NCBI GenBank assembly: GCA_025362495.1
Contig: JANYGI010000129.1
Span: 1 to 51,012, forward strand
DNA length: 51,012 nucleotides
Direction: 5' to 3'
Origin: Byssovorax sp.
Lineage (GTDB): Bacteria > Myxococcota_A > Polyangia > Polyangiales > Polyangiaceae
A model generated the notes under the pieces. That model ran no database searches and had not been told where the DNA came from. It saw only the letters and a program-made list of their open reading frames with translations. Within the stretch, counting starts at the first letter, position 1, and each line of letters begins with the position of its first letter. The translations under genes were made by a program, and so were the position numbers. Of the stretch, positions 6,062 to 25,612 are shown one piece after another.

Positions 6062-6113
6062 GGTCGGTCGTACCTCGCGCCAGCCCGGCAGAGAAGCCTG
6101 GCTGACGCGCCGT

Positions 6114-6142
6114 GTTATACGGCGATCCGAGGGATTTGTACA
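6114..6142 (-). promoter_or_regulatory. Candidate sigma-70-type promoter of gltBD
   Basis: On the minus strand a -35 TGTACA (6142-6137) and a -10 TATAAC (6119-6114) are separated by exactly 17 bases. The -10 matches 5/6 and the -35 4/6 of the E. coli consensus. Transcription would begin near 6107, giving a leader of about 45 bases to the gltB GTG. It is the only AT-rich hexamer pair in this gap. Prediction by eye only. Confidence 0.45.
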
Positions 6143-6190
6143 CCCCGGAGCGAGGTCCGATGCCGCGAGCCGCGCGGTCGTGCCGGCGCG

Positions 6191-6445
6191 CTATTTCTTC
6201 CGCATCACCATCGCGGCGATGAAGCCGATGATCGCGACGATCCCGACGACCGCGAAGATGCCGACGCCGACGCCCGCCTCGAAGATGCCTTTGACCACCT
6301 GGCACCCGTCGAGGAGCAGCAGGCTTCCCGCGATGAGCAGCAGGGGCGGGCCGTAGGCCTCCAGCCAGGTCTTTGGCATCGTACCGTCGAGGTTGGCTTC
6401 CCGGCGGGCGCGCATAATCGAGGTCGGCTTGACGTAGATATCCAT
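6191..6445 (-). CDS. Small two-helix membrane protein, unknown function
   Basis: 84 residues, not recognised. A charged N-terminal 30 residues is followed by two hydrophobic segments, about residues 33-46 (PPLLLIAGSLLLLD) and 55-80 (EAGVGVGIFAVVGIVAIIGF), and a basic end (MRKK). It is probably an inner-membrane protein with a cytoplasmic C-terminus. The start is well supported: GAGGAG lies 7 bases before the ATG at 6445. It is upstream of gltB on the same strand, 129 bases away, and is preceded by a sigma-54 promoter at 6537-6551. This suggests nitrogen- or stress-responsive expression, possibly with read-through into gltBD. The function is unknown. Confidence 0.75.
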   Translation of the reverse strand: MDIYVKPTSIMRARREANLDGTMPKTWLEAYGPPLLLIAGSLLLLDGCQVVKGIFEAGVGVGIFAVVGIVAIIGFIAAMVMRKK

Positions 6446-6473
6446 GTCGCGGCTCCTCGGGCATCAGATGTTC

Positions 6474-6492
6474 ACTCGGGATTGTTCCGAGT
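6474..6492. promoter_or_regulatory. Short inverted repeat in the leader of the small membrane gene
   Basis: ACTCGG (6474-6479) and CCGAGT (6487-6492) are perfect 6-base arms around GATTGTT. The repeat lies between the predicted sigma-54 start point (about 6526) and the ATG at 6445, so it would form a small hairpin in the 5' leader or act as an operator. It is short and could be chance. Confidence 0.3.
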
Positions 6493-6536
6493 CGGACCAC
6501 CGCGGCGGGCTGTCCTGTTCCTGGCCGAAGCGATGA

Positions 6537-6551
6537 GCAACACATGTGCCA
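6537..6551 (-). promoter_or_regulatory. Sigma-54 (RpoN) -24/-12 promoter
   Basis: The minus strand reads TGGCACATGTGTTGCT from 6551 downward. This is TGGCAC, five bases, TTGC, with the invariant GG and GC at the correct 12-base phase of the consensus TGGCACG-N4-TTGCW. Transcription would start near 6526, about 80 bases before the ATG of the small membrane protein at 6445. The strictness of the match and its position in a non-coding gap make it convincing. Confidence 0.7.
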
Positions 6552-6560
6552 TGGCAATCT

Positions 6561-6582
6561 CGCGAAATGAGGCCGATTCGCG
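6561..6582. promoter_or_regulatory. Inverted repeat upstream of the sigma-54 promoter
   Basis: CGCGAA (6561-6566) and TTCGCG (6577-6582) are perfect arms around 10 bases, starting 10 bases upstream of the -24 element. It could bind an activator or a repressor. Enhancer sites for sigma-54 activators usually lie further upstream, so the role is uncertain. Confidence 0.3.
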
Positions 6583-6669
6583 GGATATCGAGCGATGACC
6601 GCGCGGCGGGGGCGAGCCGGATCGCCCCAGGTGTGGCGCCTCGCCGCGGTGGCTCAGCCGAGCGCTTCG

Positions 6670-9030: not shown

Positions 9031-9186
9031 GAGGGTTGTCCGCCTTCCGTCCGCCAGCTCGCAAGCGGCGTGCCCCGTTGGTTCAGCGGAAAATTCCGAG
9101 GAACACGGGGAGGCTGGACAACTCGGTTGACGTTCCGGGGCGGGGATAGCCACCCGCCGGAGGACGGCGCCTCCGGCGCGAGCTGG

Positions 9187-9453
9187 TCAGTTGAGCGTCT
9201 TCGGATCGGGCGGCGCCATCTCTTCTTCTTCGCCCGTGGTCTCTTCTCCGCCGTCGGCGATCGCGCGGGCGCGCTCGGCGTTCTTCGCGTACTCGGCCCT
9301 TCGCTTCCCGTCCGTTTCGCCCTTCACGGCGCGCTCCCACAGGTGCGCGGCCTCGCGCCAGTGGCGCTCGCGAGTGCCGTCATCGCCCGCGTCGCGGGCC
9401 TTCTGCTCGGCCGCCTGGGCCTTCACGATGTGGGGATTTCGCCCGAAGCTCAT
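9187..9453 (-). CDS. Small charged helical protein, unknown function
   Basis: 88 residues from the ATG at 9453 (MSFGRNPHIVKAQAAEQKA); an upstream in-frame start at 9504 adds an unconvincing Arg-rich leader. The protein is Ala/Glu/Arg-rich and predicted helical, with an acidic tail (EETTGEEEEM). GAGG lies about 11 bases before the chosen ATG. No domain is recognised. It stands alone between a lipoprotein gene and the DUF2382 pair on the same strand. Confidence 0.7.
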   Translation of the reverse strand: MSFGRNPHIVKAQAAEQKARDAGDDGTRERHWREAAHLWERAVKGETDGKRRAEYAKNAERARAIADGGEETTGEEEEMAPPDPKTLN

Positions 9454-9566
9454 GTCTATCTCGACCTCGGCGCCGGGTGTAGCACGTCGGGCGCGCGCGC
9501 TCACGCGTCGCTCGTTCGTCGCCGGTGGAGCGCGAGGCGCGAGGTGAGGGCGCCTGTCGAGCTCGC

Positions 9567-10382
9567 TCAGCGGCGGCCGCCCGTGCCCGTCTTGGGGAGC
9601 GGCTCGACCTCGACGTCCTGGCGCCGGACGGTCCCTTCGATCGTCTCGTCGCGCTCCTCCACCGTCTTGCCGATGATCACCTCCTCGACCACGCGGGCCT
9701 GCTTGGCCACGACCGGCTCTTCCGCCGTCTGGGTCACCTCGAGCGTGACCTCTTCAAACGCATCTGCCGCGCTCGCCGGCCGATCCACCGCGCGCCGCTC
9801 GACCTCGACGTGCTCTTCGCGCAGGCGGATCACCTCTTCCACCGGCATCTCTTCCACGTGGCTGTGGACGCGTACCCCTCCTCGCTCCACGGTCCGCTTG
9901 CCGACCTCGAGCTCTTCCTGGATCACCGGGATGGTGGTCTCGCTGGTGACAGGGATCGACCGTGACGCCGGCGCGGCGGGGATGCTCCGCGCCTCGGGGG
10001 CTCCGACCGCTCCTGTCGTCGCCGCTGCGGCCGTCGCCTGCTCGCGGGTCCGGCTCCGTCCGCTGATGTCGATCGCGCCGTACTGGTTCATCAGCGCGGC
10101 CGCGCGATCCGCCATCGGATCGTCGACGTCGGCGATCAGCAGCGTATCGCCCTCGTTCATCGCGTCGGCGTACGAGGCGCCGAGCTCGCGCTCCCGCGCT
10201 TCTCCGGTGAAGCCGAAGAACGCGGCCACTCGATCGGTCCAGCGCTGGCCCCCTCGCTCGCGCGCGTCGGCCCGCGCGAGGGCGTGCACATGGCGCTTCG
10301 GCACACCGATCCGCTCCAGATCCCGGATCACGCTGTCGATGCTCGTCTTCTCGTCGAACAGCCCTACCACTGACTTCGCCAT
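9567..10382 (-). CDS. YsnF/AvaK-type DUF2382 stress protein with general-stress N-terminal domain
   Basis: 271 residues. Residues 1-95 resemble the general stress protein 17M fold (KSVVGLFDEKTSIDSVIRDL, then GDTLLIADVDD). After an Ala/Thr linker, residues 130-260 form a DUF2382 (YsnF/AvaK) domain made of alternating charged strands (IPVIQEELEVGKRTVERGGV, HVEVERRAVDRP, EEVIIGKTVEERDETI). Proteins of this class are associated with desiccation, heat and oxidative stress; the molecular role is unknown. The ATG at 10382 is preceded by a strong GGAGGAGG. It lies 19 bases downstream of a second DUF2382 gene on the same strand, so the two are probably co-transcribed. Confidence 0.9.
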   Translation of the reverse strand: MAKSVVGLFDEKTSIDSVIRDLERIGVPKRHVHALARADARERGGQRWTDRVAAFFGFTGEARERELGASYADAMNEGDTLLIADVDDPMADRAAALMNQYGAIDISGRSRTREQATAAAATTGAVGAPEARSIPAAPASRSIPVTSETTIPVIQEELEVGKRTVERGGVRVHSHVEEMPVEEVIRLREEHVEVERRAVDRPASAADAFEEVTLEVTQTAEEPVVAKQARVVEEVIIGKTVEERDETIEGTVRRQDVEVEPLPKTGTGGRR

Positions 10383-10401
10383 GGTATCCTGACCTCCTCC
10401 G

Positions 10402-10995
10402 TCAATGCTTCTCGTTGTCGTCGCCGCTCACCCGCTCGATGGTCACCTCTTCCCGTCGCACTGTCACCGTCTGCGGCGCGCGGCGCTCGACTCGCCGCTT
10501 GGTGATCCGGACCTCCTCGCGGAGGATCAGGCGCTTCTGGAGCACGATCCGCTCCTCGAAGAGCGGGACCACCGTGGTCTCACCCTCCATCCGGGCCGGC
10601 GTGGGCTCCTCGGCGAACCGGTTGATCGGCACTCGTTCGATGATGATTTCATCGGCCATCAACGGTTCGTCAACGGTCTGCTCCTCCTCGCTCACCCTCT
10701 TTTGCACGCGGAGGCGCCCGATCTCGACCTCTCGCTTGCCGATCTCGAGTCGCTCCTGGATCACCGGGATCACGACTGGCACCGATCCGTCGGGCGAGGC
10801 CGAGCTCGCGGGGAACCGCGTCGTGAGGCGCAGTCCACCTTCCGGCCGCGAGACCAGGTGAGCGGTCGGCACCACGACCTCGGCGCCGTCGTCGAGCACG
10901 ACGGCGGTCCCCGGCTCGCCGGGATCGAGCGCCTTGACCAGGCGACCATGTCGATTCGTTTCGTCGATCACCTCGAGGCCGGGAGTGCCCATCAT
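10402..10995 (-). CDS. DUF2382 (YsnF/AvaK) domain protein with PRC-barrel-like N-terminus
   Basis: 197 residues from ATG 10995 (a second ATG follows at 10992). The first 60 residues (LEVIDETNRHGRLVKALDPG, then VVLDDGAEVVVPTAHLV) look like a PRC-barrel-like beta domain. The rest is a DUF2382 domain with the same repeating pattern as its neighbour (IPVIQERLEIGKREVEIGRL, FEERIVLQKRLILREEVRIT). A longer in-frame start at 11037 exists but adds a poor sequence. It lies upstream of the other DUF2382 gene and just downstream of hsp20, making a stress-protein group on the minus strand. Confidence 0.87.
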   Translation of the reverse strand: MMGTPGLEVIDETNRHGRLVKALDPGEPGTAVVLDDGAEVVVPTAHLVSRPEGGLRLTTRFPASSASPDGSVPVVIPVIQERLEIGKREVEIGRLRVQKRVSEEEQTVDEPLMADEIIIERVPINRFAEEPTPARMEGETTVVPLFEERIVLQKRLILREEVRITKRRVERRAPQTVTVRREEVTIERVSGDDNEKH

Positions 10996-11109
10996 GGCTC
11001 TGCTTTCTATCTGCAGGTGTTCGGCTCGGCGTCGCATCGCAGCCGGCGCGCCGGGATCGCGGGCTCATCGCGCCGTCGTGCTCGAGGTGCCCGCGTGAGA
11101 TGACGCCGT

Positions 11110-11691
11110 TCAGGCGGCCTTCCTCTGCGCTTCGGGCTCGGCCGCCGGAGCCTGGCTCGCCGTCGGCGTCTGCTCGGGTGCCGATCCGATCTCGGCCGGC
11201 TTCGTCGCGCCCTGGATCGCCACCTTTCTACCCTTCATCTCGTGGAGCTTCGGCACCTTGATCTCCAGCACACCGTTCCTGAGCTGGGCCTGCACGTGCT
11301 CGAGATCGGCGCTGTCGGGCAGCACGAACGACCGGCTGAACGAGCCATGAGACCGCTCGATCGCCACGTAGCGCTCGCCCTCGCGCGTCTCCTCGGCCTC
11401 GCGCTGGCCGCTCACCGTCAGGCGATTGCCCGTCACCTGGACGTCGAGATCGTCCTCGCTCACGCCCGGAAGATCGACGTTGATCACGAAGGCATCGTTG
11501 CCCTCGGTGACGTCGAGGCTGGGCCGAAACGCGGTCTCGGTCGCGAGCAGCCCCATTCCCCCGAACGGGTCCTGGAACATCTCGCGCACCATGCGGAACG
11601 GGTCCATCCGCGACAGGGCGCCTCGCATCGGGTCCCACGAAGCCGGATCGTCCGCCTGGGTCTTCTCGCTTCTACGCATCAGCTTGGTCAT
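11110..11691 (-). CDS. Hsp20/alpha-crystallin small heat shock protein
   Basis: 193 residues from ATG 11691, chosen because AGGAGG lies 7 bases upstream. ATP-independent holdase that binds unfolding proteins. The alpha-crystallin domain spans about residues 50-145: FRPSLDVTEGNDAFVINVDL, a GSFSRSFVLP strand, and the family signature LRNGVLEIKVPK. The N-terminal arm (DPFRMVREMFQDPFGG) is typical of bacterial class A proteins. The C-terminus is long and Ala/Pro/Glu-rich (about 45 residues), ending QRKAA, without an obvious I-x-I tail. A small inverted repeat directly abuts the ribosome-binding site (see 11704-11721). It is divergent from the PP2C gene across 251 bases. Confidence 0.95.
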   Translation of the reverse strand: MTKLMRRSEKTQADDPASWDPMRGALSRMDPFRMVREMFQDPFGGMGLLATETAFRPSLDVTEGNDAFVINVDLPGVSEDDLDVQVTGNRLTVSGQREAEETREGERYVAIERSHGSFSRSFVLPDSADLEHVQAQLRNGVLEIKVPKLHEMKGRKVAIQGATKPAEIGSAPEQTPTASQAPAAEPEAQRKAA

Positions 11692-11703
11692 GTGGTCCCC
11701 TCC

Positions 11704-11721
11704 TGGGATAGGCACTTCCCA
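11704..11721 (-). promoter_or_regulatory. Hairpin abutting the hsp20 ribosome-binding site
   Basis: In the mRNA direction TGGGA (11721-11717) and TCCCA (11708-11704) pair across 8 bases, and the 3' arm runs straight into GGAGG of the Shine-Dalgarno. The geometry fits a simple temperature-sensitive leader as found in other small heat-shock genes, but the stem is only 5 bp. Confidence 0.3.
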
Positions 11722-11873
11722 TCTCGGCGCGAACATGGAGTCGACGCGGCGATCGGGTAGCCCTCGCCGACGCCGGTGGACGGTCGGCCTCGATCCGATC
11801 GCGGGGCCGCCCTCGCGGGACCGAGCGCGCGGGCCACGCGGGCCTGTTCGCGCTCACCCCGTCCGGTGTACAA

Positions 11874-11887
11874 GTCTCGGTAGAGAC
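11874..11887. promoter_or_regulatory. Inverted repeat in the hsp20/PP2C divergent gap
   Basis: GTCTC (11874-11878) and GAGAC (11883-11887) are perfect arms around GGTA, in the 251-base gap 11692-11942 between divergent genes. No convincing -35/-10 pair or CIRCE element was seen in that gap. Confidence 0.25.
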
Positions 11888-11942
11888 GTCATCGATCCCT
11901 CGTCCCCGGGCGCGCGGTTCTGCATGACGTTCGAGTGAGCCC

Positions 11943-13133
11943 ATGCCCTGGACCCTGGCCGCCGCTGCGTTCCTGATCACCTACGTGAGCCTCGTCGTCG
12001 CGTTCAGCCGGAAATCACCGGCCGATCGAGCGTCGACCGCGCCGGGCGTGCCGGCCCCTCCGCCGGCCGCGGGCGCGGCGCGGCCATCCTCGTTCCTCGA
12101 GACGGCGAAGCGAACGCGCCCGATGCCGACCGGTCGCGAGACCCCGCTCGCCAAGAAATCGAGCCCGGATCTGGCGCCGGGCGAGATCGCGCTGCTGAGC
12201 GGCGACGACGACGACGACGACATCACCATCGTCACGCTCGGCCCGCTCGCCGGCGGCGCGAGCCCGATGATGCAGACCTTCCCGATGTCGGCCTTCGACG
12301 ACGACGAGGACGTGCCGCAGCCCGGCCCGGAGGCCGTCCCGATCGTCTACGATCAGGACGCGACCGACGACGAGCCCACGCGGATCGAGGCCTTGATCCT
12401 CGTCAGCGCCGCGGGCCACACCGACACCGGCCAGCGTCGCAAGAAGAACGAGGACAGCTACCTCATCCTCGACGATCACAACCTCTTCGTCGTCGCCGAC
12501 GGCATGGGCGGCCACGCCGGTGGCGAGATCGCCAGCAAGATCGCCGTCGACACCATCGGCGCCGCCTTCAAGGCGAACCGCTTCGACGGCGAGCGCTACG
12601 CCAACGTGCCGCGCCGCGGGAGCGAGCTCGCCGTCGCCGTGCAGATGGCGAACGAGGCCATCTTCGGCCGCGCCAAGGTCGAGCCCGAGCTCACCGGCAT
12701 GGGCACCACGGTCGTCGCCGCGCGCTTCTCGCCCAACAAGCAGCGCCTCTACATCGGGCACGTCGGCGACAGCCGCTGCTACCGCCTCCGCGACGGCGAG
12801 CTCCGCCAGGTGACGACGGATCACACCATGGGCGCGAGCGGCATCACCGGCCCGCTCGCCGATCGCCTCGAGCGCGCGGTCGGGATCGCGCCCGCCGTGA
12901 AGGTCGACGTGATCATCGCCCGCCCGCTGCCGAACGATCTCTACCTGCTCTGCTCCGACGGCCTCTCGAAGATGGTGGACCTCGAGCGGATGCGCGAGAT
13001 CCTCCTCGCCGACAAGAACAACCTCGACAAGTCGGCCTCGAACCTCGTCGCCGAGGCCAACGCCGTCGGCGGCCGCGACAACATCACGGTGATCCTGGTC
13101 CAGGTCAAATCGCCGGCGACCCTCTTCCTCTGA
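11943..13133 (+). CDS. Membrane-anchored PP2C-family Ser/Thr protein phosphatase
   Basis: 396 residues. An N-terminal transmembrane helix (about residues 5-21, AAAAFLITYVSLVVAF) is followed by about 130 residues of Pro/Ala-rich and acidic linker (GDDDDDDITIV), then a complete PP2C domain. Metal-binding and conserved motifs are all visible: GHTDTGQRRKKNEDSY, VVADGMGGHAGGE, VGDSRCYRL, LCSDGLSKM and GGRDNITVILV. It would remove phosphate from Ser/Thr on cytoplasmic proteins while tethered to the membrane. It ends 4 bases before the Hsp70-like gene, so phosphatase and chaperone-like ATPase are very likely one operon and functionally linked. No kinase gene lies in the operon. Confidence 0.93.
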   Translation: MPWTLAAAAFLITYVSLVVAFSRKSPADRASTAPGVPAPPPAAGAARPSSFLETAKRTRPMPTGRETPLAKKSSPDLAPGEIALLSGDDDDDDITIVTLGPLAGGASPMMQTFPMSAFDDDEDVPQPGPEAVPIVYDQDATDDEPTRIEALILVSAAGHTDTGQRRKKNEDSYLILDDHNLFVVADGMGGHAGGEIASKIAVDTIGAAFKANRFDGERYANVPRRGSELAVAVQMANEAIFGRAKVEPELTGMGTTVVAARFSPNKQRLYIGHVGDSRCYRLRDGELRQVTTDHTMGASGITGPLADRLERAVGIAPAVKVDVIIARPLPNDLYLLCSDGLSKMVDLERMREILLADKNNLDKSASNLVAEANAVGGRDNITVILVQVKSPATLFL

Positions 13134-13137
13134 GCTC

Positions 13138-15978
13138 ATGGATAACAACGTCAACGCCTCCAAATCGAGCCCGAGCCGCGCCGCTCTGTCGCCCCGGATC
13201 CGCATCGACGATCTGACCCTGCTCATCCGCCGCTCCACGCCCAACGGCGTGCGGATGGAGATCCGGCCGCCGGCGATCGTCTCGGCCGCGACCGATCCGG
13301 TGCTGCCGATGTTCGAGGGGTGGATCCCCGGGGCCGAGCTGCTCGTGCGCGCGCGCGGCCTCTGCGACGGCGCGTTCACCGCGGCGCTCGAGGGCGGCGG
13401 GGCCGCGCTGGGCTCGCCCACGCAAGCGACGATCACGCCGGGCGAGGCGGGGCCGCTTTCGGCGTTCTCGTTCGAGATCGCGGTGCCGCTGCGCGCCCTC
13501 TCGTCCTCTGCGGGCTCGCCGCTCGCGCTCGCGGTGCTGCTCTGCCCCGGCGCCTCCGCCGCGGGGGGCCGCCGCGTCGGCCTCGTCAAGCTCACGCTGA
13601 TTGGCATCAACGGCCACGGCCCGCACCTCGCGGCCCTCGATCTGCTCGAGTCCACCGACTCGGTGCTCTTCGACGCGCCGGAGCGCCGCCTCTTCGATCT
13701 GCAGAACCCGGAAGAGGGCCTGTGGATCGGCACCGGCAAATGGCGACTCCGCCTCTTCGCCGACTGGGCCAAGAACGAGGGCGACGCCTACTCGCTCGAC
13801 GCGCGGCCGACCCAGGTCACGCACGCGTTCCAGAAGGCCTTCGACGCCACCGACGTGGTCTTCGAGGATCCCACCCGCCGCGCCGGCGGGCGCCGCACCT
13901 ACACCGAGCTGCTCCTCGACACGTCGCACCCGGATCTCGGCCCGATCCCCCAGGAAGGGAAGGACTTTCCTCTCGATCTCGGGGTCGAGCACCCGGTCAC
14001 GTTCGGCGAGCACACGGCCGTCTGCGCCTGGTTCGCCGCGCTCCCGGTGCGCTTGCGTGATCCGAAGCCGCTCCTGAAATCGTTCCAGCGCCTCTCGGCC
14101 GTCGGCATCGACTTCGGGACGACAGCCACCGTCGCGGCGCTCTATCAGAAGGGCTATCGCTCGCTGATGCGACTCGGCAGCTCCACGAGCCTTGCCGCTA
14201 AATCGGCCGAGAACCCTACGTATCTGCTGATCGAGGATCACGAGCGCCTCTGGAGCGAGATGGGCCGCGTCAACGACGTGACCCGCTTCCCCAACCTGCT
14301 CCGCGTCGTCCGCGGCAGCCACGCGGCCCACGACGCCATGGCCGACGTGCCCAGCGCCGTGCTCGGCGAGCTCAAGAGCCTGCCGGAGCGGGTGGTGAAC
14401 CTCGATCAATCCCCGCAGCTCCGCGATCGGGAGCGGCAGCGCGATTTCCTCCTCGACGAGGCCCGCGTGCGGGTCCTGGTCCGCACCTATGCTTATCTCC
14501 TCGGCCGGGCCATCAACCGCCCTGGCCAGGATGTTTATCTCCACTACTGGCTGACGCACCCGGCCAAGTTCGACGAGAAGGCGCGCAAGCTGCTGGAGGA
14601 GGAGATCAAGAACGGTATCCTGCTCAGCATCCCGGAGGGGATACCGGCGGAAGAGATCACCGTGGCGATGAGCGCGACCGAGCCAGAGGCCTTCGCGGCC
14701 GAGGTCTGCCCCGAGCTCGCGGCGCACCCGGTGCTCGAGCCCTTGATCGCCAAGTTCGGCGAGATGCGCTTCGCCGTCTTCGACTTCGGCGGAGGCACTC
14801 TGGATGTGGCCTGTGGGCGCTTCCGCCCCGCGACCGAGGCCGAGCAGGAAGAGTTCGGCAGCGCGACGGTGATCGAGACCCTCCAGGTGAGCGGCGATGA
14901 TCACCTCGGCGGCGACTACCTCACCCACGAGCTGGTGTGGCTCACCCACCAGCACGACAAGCACCTTCCCGAGATGGAGGAGAAAGAGGTGCCGATGATG
15001 CGCCCCCAGACGGTGCCTCCGAACCAGCTCGCCAACAAGCCTCACCTCTACAAGCGCAGCCTCGCCGCGCGGCAGAACCGCTTCCGCTTCGAGCGCGATC
15101 TCGGCCTGGAAGCGGTGAAGTTCGGCCCGGCCAACGAGCCCAAGCGCGCCGAGGAGCTGACGGCGGCGCGGCTCGACGGGAGCGAGGTGCGCCTCGAGTC
15201 GCTCAAGACCGATCTGCCGGGCCTGCATGTGCGCTTGAAGGCCCACCTCGAGACCCGCATCCGCGACGGCGTGAAGCTGATGAAGAGCATGCTGGCCATC
15301 GCGCCGTGGTCGGGCGACGCCGCGGCCGCGGGCGGATCACCCGCAGTGGGGGCGCAGGGCGACTGGCGCGAGCAGGGCGTCGTCATCCTCCTCGCCGGCA
15401 ACTCGTCGCGGAGCGAGTTCGTCGAGAAGGCGCTGGCCGAAGAGCTGGAGATCCCCGGCCTCAAGGTCTGGCGGCCCGACAGCGAGGGGCCGTTCCAGCA
15501 GGTGGTCCTCTACGAGACGCCGCAGCGCACCGATCGCGGCGCGACCATCGTCGGGGTGACGCCGAAGACGGCGGTGGCCCTCGGCGCGCTGAAGATTGCC
15601 AATCACGAGGTGCACCTCGTCCGGCGAACGCAGGGGTTCAGCTATTTCCTGGGCGATCTGCGCGGGTTCCCGCCCAAGTTCAAGGCCCTCGTGCCGATGG
15701 GGACCCAGGTCGGCGATCCCTCGGCGTTCGGCCCGCATTTCATCGATCTCGGTCGCTGGGACGCCAAGACGCCGCTCCGGGTCACGCGCGAGTACGTGCC
15801 TGGCCAGATGACGTCGAACGATCCGCGGATATCGCTCGTGCCCACGGGCCTGCCGCCGGGCGTGATCGGGCGACTCTATGCCTGTGTCGTCTCGCCGGAG
15901 GAGATCACGCTGGCGCTCCAGCGCGAGGGGCAAGAGCCGCTCGTCGCTCAGGTCAACCTTGCCAAGTACATGCGGTGA
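13138..15978 (+). CDS. Hsp70/actin-fold ATPase with novel N-terminal region
   Basis: 946 residues. The Hsp70-like ATPase starts only near residue 320: phosphate-1 motif GIDFGTTATVAAL (about 322-334), phosphate-2 motif FAVFDFGGGTLDVA (about 544-557), and an adenosine-site motif VILLAGNSSRSEFV (about 750). Residues 1-320 are beta-rich and match no domain I recognise (ELLVRARGLCDGAFTAAL; DATDVVFEDPTRRAG). The C-terminal 190 residues also differ from the DnaK peptide-binding domain. The overall shape, a large N-terminal beta region before an Hsp70 core, is like that of SrfB-type proteins, but identity with that family cannot be established by eye. It is encoded between a PP2C phosphatase (4-base gap) and a GrpE-like protein (4-base gap). 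Confidence 0.88.
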   Translation: MDNNVNASKSSPSRAALSPRIRIDDLTLLIRRSTPNGVRMEIRPPAIVSAATDPVLPMFEGWIPGAELLVRARGLCDGAFTAALEGGGAALGSPTQATITPGEAGPLSAFSFEIAVPLRALSSSAGSPLALAVLLCPGASAAGGRRVGLVKLTLIGINGHGPHLAALDLLESTDSVLFDAPERRLFDLQNPEEGLWIGTGKWRLRLFADWAKNEGDAYSLDARPTQVTHAFQKAFDATDVVFEDPTRRAGGRRTYTELLLDTSHPDLGPIPQEGKDFPLDLGVEHPVTFGEHTAVCAWFAALPVRLRDPKPLLKSFQRLSAVGIDFGTTATVAALYQKGYRSLMRLGSSTSLAAKSAENPTYLLIEDHERLWSEMGRVNDVTRFPNLLRVVRGSHAAHDAMADVPSAVLGELKSLPERVVNLDQSPQLRDRERQRDFLLDEARVRVLVRTYAYLLGRAINRPGQDVYLHYWLTHPAKFDEKARKLLEEEIKNGILLSIPEGIPAEEITVAMSATEPEAFAAEVCPELAAHPVLEPLIAKFGEMRFAVFDFGGGTLDVACGRFRPATEAEQEEFGSATVIETLQVSGDDHLGGDYLTHELVWLTHQHDKHLPEMEEKEVPMMRPQTVPPNQLANKPHLYKRSLAARQNRFRFERDLGLEAVKFGPANEPKRAEELTAARLDGSEVRLESLKTDLPGLHVRLKAHLETRIRDGVKLMKSMLAIAPWSGDAAAAGGSPAVGAQGDWREQGVVILLAGNSSRSEFVEKALAEELEIPGLKVWRPDSEGPFQQVVLYETPQRTDRGATIVGVTPKTAVALGALKIANHEVHLVRRTQGFSYFLGDLRGFPPKFKALVPMGTQVGDPSAFGPHFIDLGRWDAKTPLRVTREYVPGQMTSNDPRISLVPTGLPPGVIGRLYACVVSPEEITLALQREGQEPLVAQVNLAKYMR

Positions 15979-15982
15979 GCTC

Positions 15983-16747
15983 GTGAGTGAACCTACTTCC
16001 CCTCTCACGTTCGCGGCGGCGCTGCGCGCCGAGATCGACGCCGTCGTCGCTCGCTACGAGGCGATGGCGCGCGCCCACGAAGAGACGCTGTCGGCGATCC
16101 GGGCGCGCGAGGCCGAGGCGCTCGGCAAAGAGCTCGCCGCGGCGTGCGTCGAGCGCGACGGGCTCCGCGTCGAGGCCGGCGCGCAGAAGGTCGAGATTGC
16201 CACTCTCCGCGCCGAGGTGGAGGCGCTCACGCGCGAGCTCGACGCGACTCGCGGCCGCGCGGAGGCCCTCGAAGGCGCCGCCCGCGAGGCCGGCGAGACG
16301 GCGCGCGCCCTCTCGGAGCAGTTCGCCGCCGAGGAGCGCTTCGTCACCGCCTGCGCCGGCCTCGAAGGCAGCCTGCTGGGAGAGGCCTTGAAGAGCGCGC
16401 TCGGCCGGGAAATCACGGCGAATCCTGCCACCTACGCGGCGCTCAAGGGGCGAGGGCTGGAGAACATCGTGACCTCGACGTTCAAGGAGCGCGGGCGGAG
16501 CGTGGTCCAGGCGCCGCTGCTCGAGCGCGAGCGGGCCGCGATCCCGGGGATCGCCGCGGCGGCCGGCTGCGAGCTCCTCACGCCGACGCCGGGCACGCGC
16601 TACGCGGCGACCGCGATGGATAAAGCCAGCAGCGTTTCCCAGCCCGCCGAAGAGGGCAACGTGGTCGAGTGCCTGATCCCGGGCGCGCGCCGCGGCGGGA
16701 CCGAGGGAGCGCTGGTGCTCCCTCGCGTGGTCGTCGCGACCGGGTGA
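15983..16747 (+). CDS. Coiled-coil protein with GrpE-like C-terminal domain
   Basis: 254 residues, starting at GTG 15983, 4 bases after the Hsp70-like stop; longer in-frame starts lie inside that gene and read as Arg/Ser-rich shadow. Residues 10-115 are a strong coiled coil (AEVEALTRELDATRGRAEAL). Residues 120-190 are helical. The last 60 residues are beta-like and follow the GrpE beta-domain pattern: a Gly-Pro turn, a central EEGNVVECLIPGARR (compare GrpE G-x-V-x-E-x-L-x-x-G) and a terminal LVLPRVVVATG (compare L-R-P-A-x-V-x-V). GrpE is the nucleotide-exchange factor of Hsp70 and has this coiled coil-helical-beta order. I infer a dedicated exchange factor or adaptor for the adjacent Hsp70-like ATPase. 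The similarity is weak at residue level. Confidence 0.8.
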   Translation: MSEPTSPLTFAAALRAEIDAVVARYEAMARAHEETLSAIRAREAEALGKELAAACVERDGLRVEAGAQKVEIATLRAEVEALTRELDATRGRAEALEGAAREAGETARALSEQFAAEERFVTACAGLEGSLLGEALKSALGREITANPATYAALKGRGLENIVTSTFKERGRSVVQAPLLERERAAIPGIAAAAGCELLTPTPGTRYAATAMDKASSVSQPAEEGNVVECLIPGARRGGTEGALVLPRVVVATG

Positions 16748-16772: not shown

Positions 16773-18911
16773 TCAGCGGCGCTTCTGGATCTCGCTCCGC
16801 ACCCGATCGAGGACGCCGCCCAGTTTTTCGCGCGCCCGATCGACGTTGATCACGCCCGCGCCGGCGCGCTCGGCCGCGATGGCGCGCTCGCGCTCGCGGC
16901 CGACCGCGTCTTCGAGCTTGTCAATCGTGGCTTTGCGTGCCGTGATCTCCGCCTTGTGGCGCGCAGCGTCCTCGCGCAAGCGCTCGACCTCGACCTGCAG
17001 GGCGAGGGCCGCGGCGTGCTCGCCCGCGAGGTGCCGCGCGCGGACCTGAAGCTCGGCCTCGGCGGCGAGCGCGCGATTGATCTCCACGCCGAGGCGCTTC
17101 GTCGCGCCGTCGAGCTCGGCCGCCAGCGCTTGCTGCTCCTCGTCGAACCGCTGCTTCAGCGCGGCGGTGGCCTCGTCGCGCGACGCCAGCGCGAGCTCGT
17201 GGGACTGCTCGACCCGCGCGAGCGCCGCGGCGTGCTCTTCCTGGAGCGCGCGGATCACCGCGCTGTTCGCCGACTCGAGCTCGCGGCCACGATTGGAGAG
17301 CAAGAGCTCGCCCTCTTCACGCTCGACGCGCACCGTCACCGCGAGCTCGCGCTCGGCGCGCTCGGCGGCGTCGGCGAGCGCCTGGGCCCTGTCCGCTGCG
17401 GCCTCGGCGCGGTCCTTCTCGCGCGCGGCCTCGATCGCGGCGATCGCTTGCGCCTTGTCTTCCGCGGCGTCCGCGCGATCCTTCCACCGCGTCGCCTCGA
17501 TCTCGGCGAGCGCGCTGGCCTTGTCCCGGGCCGCCTCGGCGCGATCGTTCTCGCGGGCGGCCTCGTGCTCGCTGACCAAGCGAGCCCGGTCGTCGGCGGC
17601 GTCGAGCCGCTCGCGCGCGCTCGCGGCCTCGACCGCCGCGAGCGCGGCTCGCAGGCCGACGAGCTCCGCCTCGAATTCAGCGATGCGCGCCGCGAGATCC
17701 GGCGCGGGCGCGGCGATCGGCGCGGGCTCTTCCGCGGCGACAGCGGGCTCGATCGCGGGCGCCGGCTCGGCCGCGAGGCTCTCGAACGCGATCTCCTCGA
17801 TCGGCGGCGCGGCTTCGATTTGCGGCATTTCGGCCTCGATCGTCTCCGCCGGAGCGCTCGCAGCGGGGGGCTCGATCGTCTCCGCCGGAGCGCTCGCTCG
17901 GGCGGGCTCGATGACCTCCGCCAACGCGCTCGCAGCGGGCGCTTCGATCGCGGCCACCGGCTCGATCGCCGGCGCCTCCGCCGCGCTCACGGTGATCGAG
18001 AGCAGCTCGCCTGAAGTCGATCCGACGCAGAGCGCGCGCGCGCCCTTGATCGACGTCGCGAGCAGTACGCGCGGCCGGCCGCGGAGCCCGAGGGCGAGCT
18101 CGCTCGTCGGCGCGAGCACCGCGGCGCTCGCCGCGGCGATCGTCGGCTCGTCGTAGAGCGCCGCGCGCCCGTCGAGGAACACCACGGCGAGGCTCGATCC
18201 GATCACCGCGGCGTCCGCGACCCTGGCGCCGAGCTGCACGAGCTTGGCGTCGAAGCGGCGCGGCCCTCCGGTGATCACGGCGACGCCGGCCTCGCCGCGC
18301 TTGAACACCACGGCGAGCGACGCGCCGCCGCGCACGCGATCGAGTTCCGCGGCTTCGCGCGGCAGCTCGGCGCGCGCGCTCGTCCCGAGCTCCGGCGTCG
18401 CGCCGGGGTGGATCCGGAACACGCCGCCGCCCTCGCCCTCGGCGATCACATACGTCACGTGCTCGTCGACGTCCGCGGCGCGCAGCGCCCCTCCGCGCGC
18501 GGTGAACGTCCGCGCGCTGACCTCGCCGCGCGAGATCGAGAACGCCGTCGCGCTCCCGTCGGCGCCGATGCCGAGCGCGTGCGCGCCGCCGGGCCGCGCG
18601 TGGAGCGAGCGGATCTCGCGCGCGGCGACCTTCGGGCGCACCTCGCCGCCGAGGTTCGCGAGGGCCCACACGGCGCCGTCGGCCGTGCGCACCAGCGCCG
18701 CGTCGGGCCCGAGCAGCGCGACCTCTTGCGGGGAGTCGAGGTGGAGATCGACGACGCGCGCGCTGCCCCCGCCGAGCGGCACCAGCGCCAGCCGCGTCGG
18801 CCCCGTCAGGAGCACCCCGAGCAGCAGCGCGCCCGGGAGGATCGCGGCGGACGCGATCGGGGTATCGAGCTCGGTCACCTTCTCGTTCGCGGTAAGGCGG
18901 TGCGGCGTCAT
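16773..18911 (-). CDS. Predicted beta-propeller plus long coiled-coil protein
   Basis: 712 residues, no family recognised. Residues 1-310 show repeated short beta strands with Gly/Asp turns (VALLGPDAALVRTADGAVWA; HALGIGADGSATAFSISRG; LAVVFLDGRAALYDEP), consistent with a propeller. Residues 315-410 are Ala/Pro/Glu-rich and contain three tandem 12-residue repeats (PAASAPAETIEP type). Residues 415-690 are an Ala/Glu/Arg coiled coil (RAEAARDKASALAEIEATR). The end (INVDRAREKLGGVLDRVRSE) is a short amphipathic helix. No signal peptide is seen, so probably cytoplasmic. Its stop faces that of the GrpE-like gene across 25 bases. The architecture suggests a scaffold; its link to the Hsp70 operon is by position only. 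Confidence 0.82.
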   Translation of the reverse strand: MTPHRLTANEKVTELDTPIASAAILPGALLLGVLLTGPTRLALVPLGGGSARVVDLHLDSPQEVALLGPDAALVRTADGAVWALANLGGEVRPKVAAREIRSLHARPGGAHALGIGADGSATAFSISRGEVSARTFTARGGALRAADVDEHVTYVIAEGEGGGVFRIHPGATPELGTSARAELPREAAELDRVRGGASLAVVFKRGEAGVAVITGGPRRFDAKLVQLGARVADAAVIGSSLAVVFLDGRAALYDEPTIAAASAAVLAPTSELALGLRGRPRVLLATSIKGARALCVGSTSGELLSITVSAAEAPAIEPVAAIEAPAASALAEVIEPARASAPAETIEPPAASAPAETIEAEMPQIEAAPPIEEIAFESLAAEPAPAIEPAVAAEEPAPIAAPAPDLAARIAEFEAELVGLRAALAAVEAASARERLDAADDRARLVSEHEAARENDRAEAARDKASALAEIEATRWKDRADAAEDKAQAIAAIEAAREKDRAEAAADRAQALADAAERAERELAVTVRVEREEGELLLSNRGRELESANSAVIRALQEEHAAALARVEQSHELALASRDEATAALKQRFDEEQQALAAELDGATKRLGVEINRALAAEAELQVRARHLAGEHAAALALQVEVERLREDAARHKAEITARKATIDKLEDAVGRERERAIAAERAGAGVINVDRAREKLGGVLDRVRSEIQKRR
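17833..17940. repeat. 36-base tandem repeat, about 3 copies, inside a coding region
   Basis: Three head-to-tail copies of a unit containing CTCGATCGTCTCCGCC (the third is diverged, CTCGATGACCTCCGCC) encode the 12-residue Ala/Pro/Glu repeats of the linker between the propeller and the coiled coil of the 712-residue protein. The unit length is a multiple of three, so copy-number change would keep the frame. Confidence 0.8.
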
Positions 18912-21010: not shown

Positions 21011-23638
21011 ATGTGGAGCCCCGAAGGCCGTAAAGCGAACGCCGCCGAGCTGCGCCAGGTCGCAGACAAGATCCTCCGCTATCGCCAGCTCACCGACAGG
21101 TTCGCGAGCTACTTCCAGGCCGAGAGCGACAACGCCCGCCAGCTCCGCGAGCTGCGCGGGCGCTTCGAGGATCTGCGTGCGCGCAGCCTCGATCGCGAGA
21201 AGCGGCTCGCCAAGGGCGTCGTGAAGATCGGCGTCGTCGGCCTGGAAAAGCAGGGCAAGAGCGCGTTCCTCTCGGCGTGGCTCAAGAGCGAGAAGCTCCT
21301 CCCGAGCGAGGCCGAGCGCTGCACGTGGAGCACGACGGTGGTCGAGCCGAGCGAGGCCGGGCAGTTCGAGGCGGTCGTCACCTACTACGCCGAGGACGAG
21401 TTCAAGCAGCGCATCCAGAGCTACTTCGACGCGCTCGAGCCGGGCAGCGTCGAGCGCTGGCAGGGGCTCAACGCCTCGGAGATCCTGCGCATGAAGGCCG
21501 CGTTCAAGGCCCGCGAGGGCTTCGAGGTCGACGATCCCGATCGCGCCGGGCGCCGCGAGCAGACCTCGCTCGCCGAGCTCAACGACATCGCGGCAGGCCT
21601 GTCTGACATCAAATCGCGGCTCGGCAAAGCGCCCGAGACGATCATCGCCACCAGCCTCGACGAGCTCGCCGAGAAGATCCGCCCGTTCATCGCGCTGAAG
21701 GACACGCGCAACGGGAACCGGCCGTACCCCGGCGTGCGCGCGGTCAAGCTCGTGGCGGTGATGATCCCGGTCGAGGGCGCGATGCCCGGCGTGGTGCTGA
21801 TGGATCTGCCCGGCATCGACGCGCCGTCGGACAAGGCGCGGCGCGACACCGAGGACGCGCTCACCAACGAGGTCGACGTCACCATCTTCGTGAAAGACGT
21901 GACCCGGCCCTCGCTGGTCCGGAACGAGATCGAGCTCCTGCGCACGGTGCAGTCGGCCGACCGCAGCATCTCGCTCAAGGATCGGATCTTCGTGGTGCTG
22001 ACCAAGATCGATCTGTTCGATCGGCCCGACGAGAACGGCAACTGGCACTGGTCGCTCGCGGCGCGGAACTTCCGCGAGCAGGGGGTCGAGCGCGTGTTCC
22101 CGTACTCGAAGATCTGGGTCCACCAGGGCCCGGAGCTGGCGCACCCCGTCGCCAAGCAGCTCATGGATTTCTACGGCTCGACCACGCCGGTCCACGGGCT
22201 CGAGCGCCTCAAGGAGGCGGTGCTCCACTACCTCAACACCGACGTGGAAGCCCTCGATCGCAAGGTGATCTCCGGCGTGCACGCCGAGTTCGCCGAGCTC
22301 GAGGTGCGCCTCCGCGGGCTGCTCGTGACGGTCAAGGACAGCCTCTCGGATCGGGAGTTCGAGCGGCGCGCCGAGCAGGTGTTCGACCTTCATTTCGAGC
22401 ACATCCAGGCCGGCGAGGATCCGAGGGGGCTCCTGCCCGAGATCAGGAAGGGCCTCTCGGCCTTCATGGATCTCGAGATGAGCGAGTCGCAGCGGCTGGC
22501 CCGCGCCGAGCGCGCCGACGTGCGCATCGATCAGATCCGCGCCGATCTCCTGCTGCGCCTCACGCCCGAGGAGGCCGAGGCCAAGCGTCGCCAGATGCCG
22601 AGCCCCGGCCTGATGAATGAGACCGCCGTCGAGATCGAGATGCGCAAGCAGATGCGCGAGCGCGTCGCGGCCCGCATCGCCGGCCTCGGCGAGGACTTCC
22701 GCAACACCGCGCGCGACAGCGTCGAGCGGATGCTGACCGAGATGTTCGTCAAGGCCTCGTACGAGGGCGGGCGCCTGGAAGTGCTGCTCCCGCCGGGCAA
22801 GGCGCTGATCGAGCGCATCGATCAGCTCGGGCGATCTGGCCACGTGTCCGAGAGCGTCGTGCGCTACCAGAACAACGAGATGGCCAAGGCCGACGTCGCG
22901 TTCGAGGTGCTCTCGCGCTACTTCGCGCGGCAGATCGTGGACATCCTCGACGCGACCGATCCCGGCGATCGCGAGATCCGCGAGCGCGAGATGCGCGGGC
23001 TCGAGCAGTTCTTCGGGATGGGGATCGCCGACAAAGCGCAGGGCGCGCAGACTGCCGCGCCGGCCGCGTCGGCGGGCGGGATGCTCGGCTCGGTCAAGGC
23101 CAAGCTCGGCTTCGGCGAGACGGCCGAGGGCGTCGCGGCGGCGGCGCCGATCGGCGGGTTCCCCACGGCGGGCAGCGCGACGCCGATGGCCGCCGCGAAG
23201 CCCGTGGCCGCGCCCGCGGCCGGCGCGACGCGCGTGACGACGACGCGGGTCACGTCGCCCGAGCCGACGGCGGCGCCGACGTCGACGCGCGACTGGACGA
23301 AGATGATCGCCCGCGTGAAAGAGGACGTGGAGCGGATCTGCAACTTCCTCGAGGCGCTGGCGAAGCACCCGCGCGGCCTGCAGAAATATCACGAGGAGGC
23401 GGTGCGCACCGTCCACGACTCGTGGATCGATCGCGAGGGCGAGCAGTCGCTCCGGCGCTGGGTGCGGAGCGAGTGCTCGCGGATCTGGCCGCACAAATTC
23501 TCGGCGATCGACGCCGAGAAAGACCGCGCGCGCGCCGACATCGAGTCGCTCGAAGAGCTGTTCGGCGGCGAGCGCAAGGCCTCCGCGGCGCCGGTGAACG
23601 GCGCGCCCGAGGCCTCGGCCGCGCGGTCGGGGGTCTGA
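21011..23638 (+). CDS. Dynamin-like large GTPase
   Basis: 875 residues. A 70-residue helical N-terminus leads into a GTPase domain with G1 GLEKQGKS (about 77-84), a G2 threonine in CTWSTTVVEPS, G3 DLPGID (about 262) and G4 TKID (about 331). Residues 400-690 are long charged helices as in a dynamin stalk. An Ala/Pro/Thr-rich linker (about 690-755, e.g. AAPAAGATRVTTTRV) precedes a final helical region (TKMIARVKEDVERICNFLEA). No transmembrane helix. GTPases of this class remodel membranes or assemble on surfaces. The next gene begins 3 bases after the stop, so the two products almost certainly work together. Confidence 0.9.
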   Translation: MWSPEGRKANAAELRQVADKILRYRQLTDRFASYFQAESDNARQLRELRGRFEDLRARSLDREKRLAKGVVKIGVVGLEKQGKSAFLSAWLKSEKLLPSEAERCTWSTTVVEPSEAGQFEAVVTYYAEDEFKQRIQSYFDALEPGSVERWQGLNASEILRMKAAFKAREGFEVDDPDRAGRREQTSLAELNDIAAGLSDIKSRLGKAPETIIATSLDELAEKIRPFIALKDTRNGNRPYPGVRAVKLVAVMIPVEGAMPGVVLMDLPGIDAPSDKARRDTEDALTNEVDVTIFVKDVTRPSLVRNEIELLRTVQSADRSISLKDRIFVVLTKIDLFDRPDENGNWHWSLAARNFREQGVERVFPYSKIWVHQGPELAHPVAKQLMDFYGSTTPVHGLERLKEAVLHYLNTDVEALDRKVISGVHAEFAELEVRLRGLLVTVKDSLSDREFERRAEQVFDLHFEHIQAGEDPRGLLPEIRKGLSAFMDLEMSESQRLARAERADVRIDQIRADLLLRLTPEEAEAKRRQMPSPGLMNETAVEIEMRKQMRERVAARIAGLGEDFRNTARDSVERMLTEMFVKASYEGGRLEVLLPPGKALIERIDQLGRSGHVSESVVRYQNNEMAKADVAFEVLSRYFARQIVDILDATDPGDREIREREMRGLEQFFGMGIADKAQGAQTAAPAASAGGMLGSVKAKLGFGETAEGVAAAAPIGGFPTAGSATPMAAAKPVAAPAAGATRVTTTRVTSPEPTAAPTSTRDWTKMIARVKEDVERICNFLEALAKHPRGLQKYHEEAVRTVHDSWIDREGEQSLRRWVRSECSRIWPHKFSAIDAEKDRARADIESLEELFGGERKASAAPVNGAPEASAARSGV

Positions 23639-23641
23639 GCG

Positions 23642-25612
23642 ATGGCCTGGGATCTCGAGCGCCTCGGCAGCTACGTCCGCTTTTACCTCACGGTGAAGAC
23701 CCAGCTCAACGCCGCCTGGGAGAACCTCGATCGCACTCATGCCGCGCTGAAAGAGGCGCTCGCGCCGTTCGCGGAGCCGCTCGCGCCGGTGGAGGCGACG
23801 GCGCTGATCGAGGCGCTCAAGGCGGCTCCGGTGTTCCGCGAGCGCCTGGCCGAGCTGTGGGCGCCCGAGGATCTCGCGGCGCTGTCCGAGCTCAACGACG
23901 TGTACGAGGTCGTCGGGCGCTTCAGCTTCCAGGGCGAGGACAACCGCAACCTCGCACGGGTGCAGTCGCTGGTGTCGGGGGCGCGCAACGAGATCGTCAA
24001 CCAGCGCGGGCGCGTCACGGATCTCCTTCGTTTACCGGGCCTCGGGCGCGCGGCAGCGGCGCGCCTCGCGGCGCAAGAGGCGACGCGCGCGGCGACCGAG
24101 CTGCGCGAGAAGACAGCGCTGTTCGAGCCGCTCGCCGAGGCCGTCAACGTCCGCGCGCGCCAGACGATCGAGGCGACGCGCGCGGTGCCGATCCCCGACC
24201 TCTCGTCGGCGGACACCGCGGGCGACGAGTACAAGCGCTACGCCGCGAAGGTCGATCAGGTCTATCAGACCTGCGTGCCTTTCCTGCGCAAGGCCATCAG
24301 CTCGCTTTATGGCTTCGTCGGCTGCGAGCCGACCGCGACCTGGCCCGACGCGCTGCCGCTCGAGCGCGCGCTCCCCGCCGAGCTCTGCTCGGTGCCGCCG
24401 GCCGACTCGCCCGACTGGATGGCCGCGCGCACCAGCCTGAAGCAGCTCGCCGAGGAAGAGATCCAGCTCGGCCGCGCGCGGGAGGAGATCACCACGGCCG
24501 CCGCGCGGATCGAGGGCGAGATGGCCGCCGCCGCGATGAAGGACAAGGAGATCGAGATCGAGATCCTCTCGACCACGGCGATCGTCGACTACGTGTTCGC
24601 GGCCGAGCAGGCCGAGGCCGCGCACCAGGCGCTGCCGGCGCTCGAGCAGCAGCGCGCGCTCCGCCTGCACACCAGCGGCGAGGTCTCGCAGCGGCACCGG
24701 GTGATCGAAGAGTCGATCCGCCTCCTCGACGACGAGCTCCGCGCGCGCAGCGAGGAGATCGCGGCGATCGCGGCGCGGCTCGAGGCCGAGCGAAAGTCGG
24801 AGCCGGTGCTCTTCGGCAAGGACGAGTGGCGCGGTCGCGTCGGCGATCTCGAGGCCGAGCTCGAAGCGCGGCGGGTCGCGTTCGGGCAGCGGAAAACGGC
24901 CCTGAATCAGCACAAGATCGAGCTGTCGGCGGTGTCGGTGCAGGTGCAGACCGAGCAGGCGCAGAGCGGCCTCGTCGATCGCCAGGTCGAGAGCATGCAG
25001 GCTCGCCTCGCGACGCTGACGCGGACGCTGCGCGAGATGGAAGCGGCGCTCGGCGGCGCGCGGCCGGCGCGGCCCGTCACGGTGGCGGAGGCGCAGTCGG
25101 CGCTGGCGACGCTGCAGCAGGGGAGGATCGATCTCGGGCAGCGGGTGGAGCGGCTGAAGGCCGAGACGCGACGCCAGAAGGAAGAGGCCGTGCGCATCCT
25201 CGGGCGGATGAAGCAGCTCAGCGTCGAGCGACAGCAGGTGGCGGCGATGCTCCAGAACGCCGAGGTCTCGGCGACCGAGGGGCACGAGGCGGCGCTGAAG
25301 CAGCTCGCGGCCCAGCGGCGCGCGGCCGTCGAGCGCCACGTGAGCGAGGTGCTGGGCACGCTCGAGAAATCGCTGACGCTGGTGGGGCAGGTCTTCATCG
25401 ATCCGGCGCGCGAGGCGCTGGCGAAGAGCTGCGCGCCGAAGACCGAGATCGCGGCGGCGGTGCTCGAGAACGCCGAGAAGGTCGCGCCGCTGGTGGAGAA
25501 GCTCCACCACGATCTCACGCCGGAGCTGCTCGCGCAGGACGCGACGCTGGGCCAGCTCCAGCGCGAGTTCTGCGACGTGGCGTTGACGGCGTGCAAGACG
25601 GCCTGGGGTTGA
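23642..25612 (+). CDS. Large coiled-coil protein partnered with the dynamin-like GTPase
   Basis: 656 residues, no family recognised. Residues 1-260 are helical but not heptad-like and include a distinctive aromatic segment (LGSYVRFYLTVKTQL) and LRKAISSLYGFVGCEP. Residues 265-560 are long coiled coil (EEEIQLGRAREEITTAAARI; LEAELEARRVAFGQRKTALN). The C-terminal 90 residues form a separate helical part (LTLVGQVFIDPAREALAKSC). No signal peptide or membrane segment. It begins 3 bases after the dynamin-like gene and is likely translated from the same mRNA. A hairpin at 25652-25671 follows. I infer a structural partner or effector of the GTPase; the function is unknown. Confidence 0.87.
   Translation: MAWDLERLGSYVRFYLTVKTQLNAAWENLDRTHAALKEALAPFAEPLAPVEATALIEALKAAPVFRERLAELWAPEDLAALSELNDVYEVVGRFSFQGEDNRNLARVQSLVSGARNEIVNQRGRVTDLLRLPGLGRAAAARLAAQEATRAATELREKTALFEPLAEAVNVRARQTIEATRAVPIPDLSSADTAGDEYKRYAAKVDQVYQTCVPFLRKAISSLYGFVGCEPTATWPDALPLERALPAELCSVPPADSPDWMAARTSLKQLAEEEIQLGRAREEITTAAARIEGEMAAAAMKDKEIEIEILSTTAIVDYVFAAEQAEAAHQALPALEQQRALRLHTSGEVSQRHRVIEESIRLLDDELRARSEEIAAIAARLEAERKSEPVLFGKDEWRGRVGDLEAELEARRVAFGQRKTALNQHKIELSAVSVQVQTEQAQSGLVDRQVESMQARLATLTRTLREMEAALGGARPARPVTVAEAQSALATLQQGRIDLGQRVERLKAETRRQKEEAVRILGRMKQLSVERQQVAAMLQNAEVSATEGHEAALKQLAAQRRAAVERHVSEVLGTLEKSLTLVGQVFIDPAREALAKSCAPKTEIAAAVLENAEKVAPLVEKLHHDLTPELLAQDATLGQLQREFCDVALTACKTAWG

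Follow-up and report, generated by a model that had tools for sequence, protein, structure and literature searches.

The genes for an Hsp70-like ATPase (HSP) and a dynamin-like GTPase (DLP) are inherited together and diverge in step in the myxobacterial genomes compared here. Both lie in the window, the whole 51,012-nucleotide stretch analysed, which spans positions 1-51012 of contig JANYGI010000129.1 (G000:C109:1-51012) in a Byssovorax sp. genome of 10.8 Mb in 240 contigs. HSP occupies positions 13138..15978 of the forward strand and codes for 946 amino acids (aa); DLP occupies 21011..23638 of the same strand and codes for 875 aa. Each is followed on that strand by a gene for a coiled-coil protein: CC (15983..16747, 254 aa, with a GTG start at 15983), a possible nucleotide exchange factor, follows HSP, and CC2 (23642..25612, 656 aa) starts 3 bases past DLP. 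The original prediction for this DNA, a phosphorylation-controlled machine of a PP2C phosphatase, an Hsp70-fold ATPase and a GrpE-like protein at 11943-16747, is partly supported. HSP and, less surely, CC belong to the module and the phosphatase does not, while DLP and CC2, the conserved company across genomes, were missed; the predicted coordinates end too soon, and the conserved unit goes on at 21011-25612. DLP is the defining partner, and the general kind, an Hsp70-type ATPase plus a large GTPase, is loosely known. We assign a probability of about 0.45 to the reading that HSP, CC, DLP and CC2 form a lineage-restricted module in which the HSP ATPase would remodel a DLP assembly, perhaps with its own exchange factor.

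Co-inheritance of HSP and DLP

Comparisons across genomes support the joint inheritance of HSP and DLP. First, the two genes occur in the same genomes. A survey of 282 Myxococcota genomes, limited to the top three candidates in each, finds HSP in seven; one of these (G202) holds a distant relative, apart from which full-length HSP relatives are confined to the order of the window. DLP, surveyed in 86 genomes of this order and outside it in G202 only, is present in 13 of the 86, and all 13 carry HSP (six identified in the phylum survey and seven in follow-up). The 73 DLP-negative genomes comprise 34 that were not tested for HSP and 39 that were (37 in the phylum survey, four of them retested and again negative, and two in the follow-up alone); 38 of these 39 have no HSP, and in the other, G315, a genome 76% complete, there is a fragment of HSP. 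Among the 52 genomes of the order tested for both genes, 13 contain both, 38 contain neither, and one contains the HSP fragment only. A scan of the species collection for loci matching exact peptide patterns, an approach that reaches close relatives only, returns six loci, with the titles Minicystis, Polyangium, Polyangiaceae, Myxococcota and deltaproteobacteria. Five further genomes reached through loci carry both genes, giving 18 in all. At the HSP locus, the nearest named relatives found are those of Minicystis rosea and of a Polyangium, at 77% and 75% HSP protein identity, respectively.

Second, the pairwise identities of HSP and DLP are tightly correlated (r = 0.956 for 105 pairs from 15 genomes), although the pairs are not independent and share a common phylogeny. 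In a control with GrpE (21 shared pairs, seven genomes), which is both small and short, the HSP-DLP value is 0.949 and those for HSP-GrpE and DLP-GrpE are 0.59 each. Third, gene order is repeated. HSP and DLP are clustered in six of the 18 genomes, in the order HSP-CC-DLP-CC2 in G066 and G309, in the order HSP-DLP-CC2 in G061, G284 and G285, and in the window as HSP-CC with DLP-CC2 4.3 kb further on. Minicystis and Polyangium carry two separate pairs, HSP-CC and DLP-CC2. CC lies directly after HSP in nine of the 18 HSP-bearing genomes, one other contig (G286) ending within HSP, and CC2 comes next after DLP in 12 of the 16 genomes whose sequence continues past DLP (absent at that place in G139, G159, G286 and G317; G313 and G319 are not judgeable).

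A single genome suggests that the dynamin association of this Hsp70 branch extends past the order. In G202, which belongs to another family, the HSP relative (hhalign probability, Prob, 99.8; E 3e-29) and a dynamin-family gene (PF00350, E 7.9e-7) have two genes between them. A DLP relative (Prob 99.0, E 5e-18) sits on a different contig of G202, adjoining a second dynamin-family gene. At 3336-6591 of locus L047 (G202:C165), two genes of the dynamin family stand in tandem, coding for 775 and 308 aa.

Proteins of the module

HSP is predicted to consist of a beta-rich N-terminal part (residues ~20-307), an Hsp70 nucleotide-binding core (~316-830) and a beta-rich C-terminal part (~869-940), all limits being approximate. 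At the Pfam cut-off there is no PF00012 match for HSP, for any of the 11 HSP members or on contig C109, and the NCBIfam matches to HscA/DnaK are weak (best E 9e-6). The 11-sequence HSP alignment matches four DnaK-type proteins of the window genome by hhalign with Prob 96 and E 4.8e-9. Searched with Foldseek, the HSP model reaches a best E of 4.8e-8 against DnaK, yet the TM-scores are low (0.16/0.25); VIA-align gives Z of 8.6-11.2 over 122-308 residues for the 50 matches listed, nearly all of them to Hsp70-family structures. The putative catalytic residues D325, T328, K413, E515, D549 and GGGT551-554, whose equivalence to DnaK residues we in part presume, are invariant in all 11 sequences, and the motif pattern is DnaK-like, including the stretch LGGDYLTHE. 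The profile match and these residues bear out the Hsp70-fold ATPase that had been predicted for the second gene.

A peptide-binding domain in the HSP C-terminus seemed possible by eye, but the profile comparison gave it no support. The C-terminal 127 aa score 15.7 against a DnaK profile, a value that falls among those of 200 column shuffles (top 27.0), and a few VIA-align matches reach this part, only at a root-mean-square deviation of ~10 A or more. The N-terminal 314 aa have no solved relative below E 1. By these sequence comparisons HSP keeps an Hsp70 ATPase core, and a peptide-binding domain is not demonstrable.

DLP matches Dynamin_N (PF00350) above the cut-off (E 1.1e-9), as do all five DLP members, and its G1, G3 and G4 stretches are conserved in five of five aligned sequences. 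It also weakly matches the solved chains of SynDLP (Slr0869; E 0.0012) and BDLP (E 0.0065). Judged by its GTP-binding motifs, DLP is a dynamin-like GTPase, which may self-assemble and act on membranes in a GTP-dependent way.

CC is predicted to form a long helix (residues 7-123) and short helices (131-193), followed by a low-confidence C-terminal part. The order of helices fits GrpE, but residues 202-254 have a predicted local distance difference test score (pLDDT) below 50. Pfam searches return no GrpE family (PF01025) match for CC, and the GrpE family matches of its own genome are on contigs C131 and C33, not on C109. No GrpE-titled entry appears among the best 50 of 110 Foldseek matches (best E 1.4) or among the 50 VIA matches listed, the best of which (Z 7.1) is to a long helix. 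Both lists include weak matches to short chains from HSP70 entries (among them 5aqf and 5aqg), which we take to be BAG exchange-factor fragments and which, at these scores, are given no weight. The C-terminal 77 positions of CC can be aligned, in register, to the GrpE C-terminal domain from related genomes. In this comparison of nine CC sequences (one cut row dropped) with 13 GrpE rows, the score is 21.4 (E 0.009, Prob 4.6), and one of 300 column shuffles is as good. The score drops to 17.5 (E 0.038) without two degenerate GrpE rows, the shuffle control covering the full set, and is 22.1 with five CC sequences, where one of 100 shuffles is as good. The resemblance of CC to GrpE is only suggestive, a lead and not a demonstration. 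The GrpE-like exchange factor of the original prediction is retained as a possibility for its C-terminal pattern and its place beside HSP, and finds no backing from family matches.

A GrpE family match at G000:C33:12131-12400 (L076) lies in a 462-aa frame near a partial-length Hsp70 match (C33:12451-12762), and G061 has a second, divergent GrpE match (L075). No GrpE family match is found in G139 and G202, two of the 13 genomes searched, which are drafts 93 and 88% complete.

A proposed remodelling mechanism and its alternatives

The reading given a probability of about 0.45 can be set out as a cycle. DLP would build an assembly, either membrane-borne or polymeric, for which CC2 would serve as scaffold, and HSP would recognise this assembly through its own N-terminal beta-rich part and not through a classical peptide-binding domain. 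ATP hydrolysis by HSP would then load or dismantle the DLP assembly, and CC, as an exchange factor, would reset HSP. The analogy is with Hsc70, which dismantles clathrin coats. The expectation that HSP acts on DLP comes from the general behaviour of dynamins and Hsp70 motors, which is established, and from one published remark on a DnaJ domain. A gene for a dynamin-like protein with a DnaJ-like domain adjoins BDLP1, which provides a precedent for a dynamin-Hsp70 link (PMC6104087).

Several observations weigh against this reading. HSP and DLP do not share a cluster in 12 of the 18 genomes, being 838 kb apart in Minicystis, 41 kb apart in G317 and on different contigs in ten, where broken assemblies could hide neighbours. 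CC is not found after HSP in eight genomes (G061, G284, G285, G234, G159, G306, G311 and G314); in the last of these, a fragment of CC stands before DLP. The HSP model has a mean pLDDT of 60.8, with residues ~20-307 mostly at good confidence and much of the remainder poor. The G202 gene of the dynamin family that lies close to the HSP relative is no clear relative of DLP (hhalign E 0.008, Prob 4.8). To these must be added the weakness of the CC-GrpE likeness, the reach of the two surveys, and the shared phylogeny and small control behind the identity correlations.

The loading, control and disassembly of bacterial dynamins are poorly understood. A dynamin-like GTPase whose co-inherited partner is a dedicated Hsp70-like ATPase would offer simple genetics with which to test an Hsp70-driven dynamin cycle. 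On a bolder and less probable reading, the module would do in prokaryotes what chaperones do when they drive the disassembly of coats or dynamins, and its Hsp70-type ATPase, dedicated divergent GrpE-like factor, dynamin-like GTPase and coiled-coil scaffold would have evolved separately from DnaK-GrpE and from the known paired bacterial dynamins. Among the papers listed by a literature search with little coverage of subscription journals, none describes, as judged by title, opening of the abstract or excerpt, an Hsp70-like/dynamin-like module of this kind.

HSP resembles DnaK in its ATPase core, and CC weakly resembles GrpE in its exchange factor pattern; unlike DnaK-GrpE, however, the pair has no peptide-binding domain found in HSP and no GrpE family match in CC, and the window genome has its own DnaK proteins and canonical GrpE elsewhere. 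The bacterial dynamin-like proteins BDLP1, SynDLP, Cj-DLP1/2 and LeoABC resemble DLP through Dynamin_N and the weak SynDLP and BDLP matches. Most such proteins pair with a second dynamin gene (PMC6104087), whereas the recurrent partner of DLP is an Hsp70-like ATPase.

The alternative that survives best, and is still unlikely, is a conflict system, anti-phage or toxin-like, that would follow the logic of the GTPase-centred HSP70-GrpE systems or of SrfABC, with the NTPases gating a membrane effector step. These are the nearest known kinds, and the parts list of the module is of the same sort as theirs (PMC7159879; SrfABC). Kaur et al. 2020 describe GAP1-N2 conflict systems in which GTPases share one neighbourhood with HSP70 and GrpE; some carry a second HSP70 without a peptide-binding domain, and another theme combines a kinase with PP2C (PMC7159879). 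The statement in the original prediction that no system with its set of genes is known thus needs qualification: none was found for the module, but a 2020 publication describes GTPase systems that include HSP70 together with GrpE, and further ones that include a kinase together with PP2C (PMC7159879). The GAP1-N2 GTPases are described there as TRAFAC DO-GTPases accompanied by GAP1 and FNIII proteins (PMC7159879), whereas DLP is of the dynamin family. DLP members match Dynamin_N and, with E allowed up to 10, nothing of the DO-GTPase family; no DO-GTPase, GAP1 or FNIII match is listed for HSP, CC, DLP or CC2, other neighbours having been scanned in part. A sub-threshold match to DO-GTPase2 (E 0.059) in the dynamin-family gene close to the G202 relative of HSP favours a conflict role.

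SrfB and SrfC offer a second comparison. SrfB (PF07520) is above its cut-off in two of 235 Myxococcota genomes, G032 and G149, both of the same order as the window. In their loci (L081 and L082) the SrfB and SrfC (PF10139) relatives are clustered, separated by a gene of ~400-440 aa and also by a smaller called gene; the myxobacterial SrfB and SrfC of L082 have no solved relative by sequence. In the SrfB-SrfC cluster, as in the module, a protein that has an Hsp70-type ATP site (918-965 aa) neighbours one that has a P-loop-like stretch (846-894 aa). The alignment of HSP with SrfB is confined to the region around the ATP site (E 3e-5, Prob 73, with no shuffle control) and is a point in favour of a conflict role; DLP aligns with SrfC solely at the P-loop (E 0.14). 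The SrfB neighbourhood has no clear counterpart of CC or CC2, unlike the HSP module. No PF07520 match is found in the window's own genome, in HSP or in the 11-member HSP alignment (E up to 10), and DLP has no PF10139 match. Membership of HSP and DLP in the SrfB and SrfC families was therefore rejected, the ATP-site region alone being common. 

The distribution of the module bears on the conflict alternative in both directions. Two of 22 genomes in the window's own family carry the module, a patchiness in keeping with a conflict system, but 11 of 13 genomes in family f4 carry it, which looks like long residence and not like a mobile defence island. Searched against the PADLOC defence library, HSP and DLP give no meaningful match, and the gene maps show no recurring effector gene beside the module. 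Should the remodelling reading hold, it might join SrfBC and the GTPase-HSP70 conflict systems, both poorly understood, under one mechanism.

An improbable alternative is a cytoskeletal or cell-envelope complex acting in division, sporulation or vesicle formation, in which HSP would be an actin-fold polymer and not a chaperone-type motor. Hsp70 cores share the actin fold, the partners are coiled coils, and the order to which full-length HSP relatives belong, the distant one aside, is known for complex development; against this stand the DnaK-like motif pattern with its LGGDYLTHE stretch and the GrpE-like neighbour, which better suits a nucleotide-cycled chaperone. It is very improbable that HSP and DLP are unrelated lineage-specific genes with a common vertical inheritance: the 12 unclustered genomes and the presence of both genes in the same clades fit this view, but within family f1 their distribution is patchy yet matched, their clustering is repeated in the same order, and the distant case of G202 adds to the association.

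The PP2C gene and its surroundings

The gene upstream of HSP (11943..13133, forward strand) codes for a PP2C-type Ser/Thr phosphatase of 396 aa and is the first gene of the operon in the window. Its catalytic domain is complete (Pfam PP2C_2, E 1.8e-17, 64 bits against a cut-off of 24), and aspartate motifs that we take to follow the PP2C pattern can be read directly in the protein, which also has a single hydrophobic N-terminal stretch (residues 4-22) and an acidic linker. The spacers on either side of HSP (13134-13137 and 15979-15982) are each 4 bases long, as had been noted, and consist of the identical word GCTC. From this spacing, PP2C, HSP and CC very probably form a single transcript in the window genome. 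A promoter scan, which is uninformative in GC-rich DNA, found none, and terminator-like sites number 6 against 4.4 expected.

This arrangement is not conserved. HSP is present, in full or cut by a contig end, in 17 other genomes. Three of them (G061, G313 and G314) are not judgeable; in the remaining 14, where the sequence extends 1.3 kb or more upstream of HSP, PP2C is absent from that position. The best PP2C relatives sit away from HSP: 562 kb off in Minicystis (68% over residues 118-393) and on other contigs in Polyangium and G061, that of Polyangium directly after a kinase-like gene (kinase by similarity only). In G066 one PP2C gene lies ~3 kb past CC2, the last gene of the module, but this is unremarkable because the 12 genomes searched have 5-17 PP2C matches each at E 1e-20. 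PP2C at the HSP locus is peculiar to the window genome, incidental and outside the conserved module. As the core of a machine it is rejected on synteny and should not be pursued; the phosphatase's claimed membership did not survive the neighbour test. A self-contained, phosphorylation-regulated chaperone in which a membrane-anchored PP2C would control the Hsp70-like ATPase and its exchange factor is the least probable explanation, given the empty upstream positions and the relatives placed elsewhere, for all that the operon is tight, the domain complete and a PP2C gene near in G066. Under the remodelling reading PP2C would be a local addition, perhaps with a module component as its substrate in this single genome.

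The 4.3 kb between CC and DLP in the window contain a convergent 712-aa gene (16773..18911, reverse strand), a TetR gene and others. The 712-aa gene lies outside the module, and its protein has no family match above any cut-off. In Minicystis, a relative of the protein's N-terminal 300 residues (46%) is encoded ~3 kb past HSP-CC. Right after HSP-CC in Minicystis rosea, a convergent gene (L016:11593-13725) codes for a 710-aa caspase-domain (Peptidase_C14) protein. Upstream of the PP2C operon and divergent from it, with 206 bases between, two DUF2382 genes and an Hsp20 gene occupy 9567-11736 on the reverse strand of the window. Elsewhere in the window genome, positions 6335-12459 of locus L083 (G000:C31:16000-35900) hold a DUF2760 gene in a row with two Hsp70-like genes, of 621 aa and of 1169 aa (the latter with DUF3731), which make another non-canonical Hsp70 pair.

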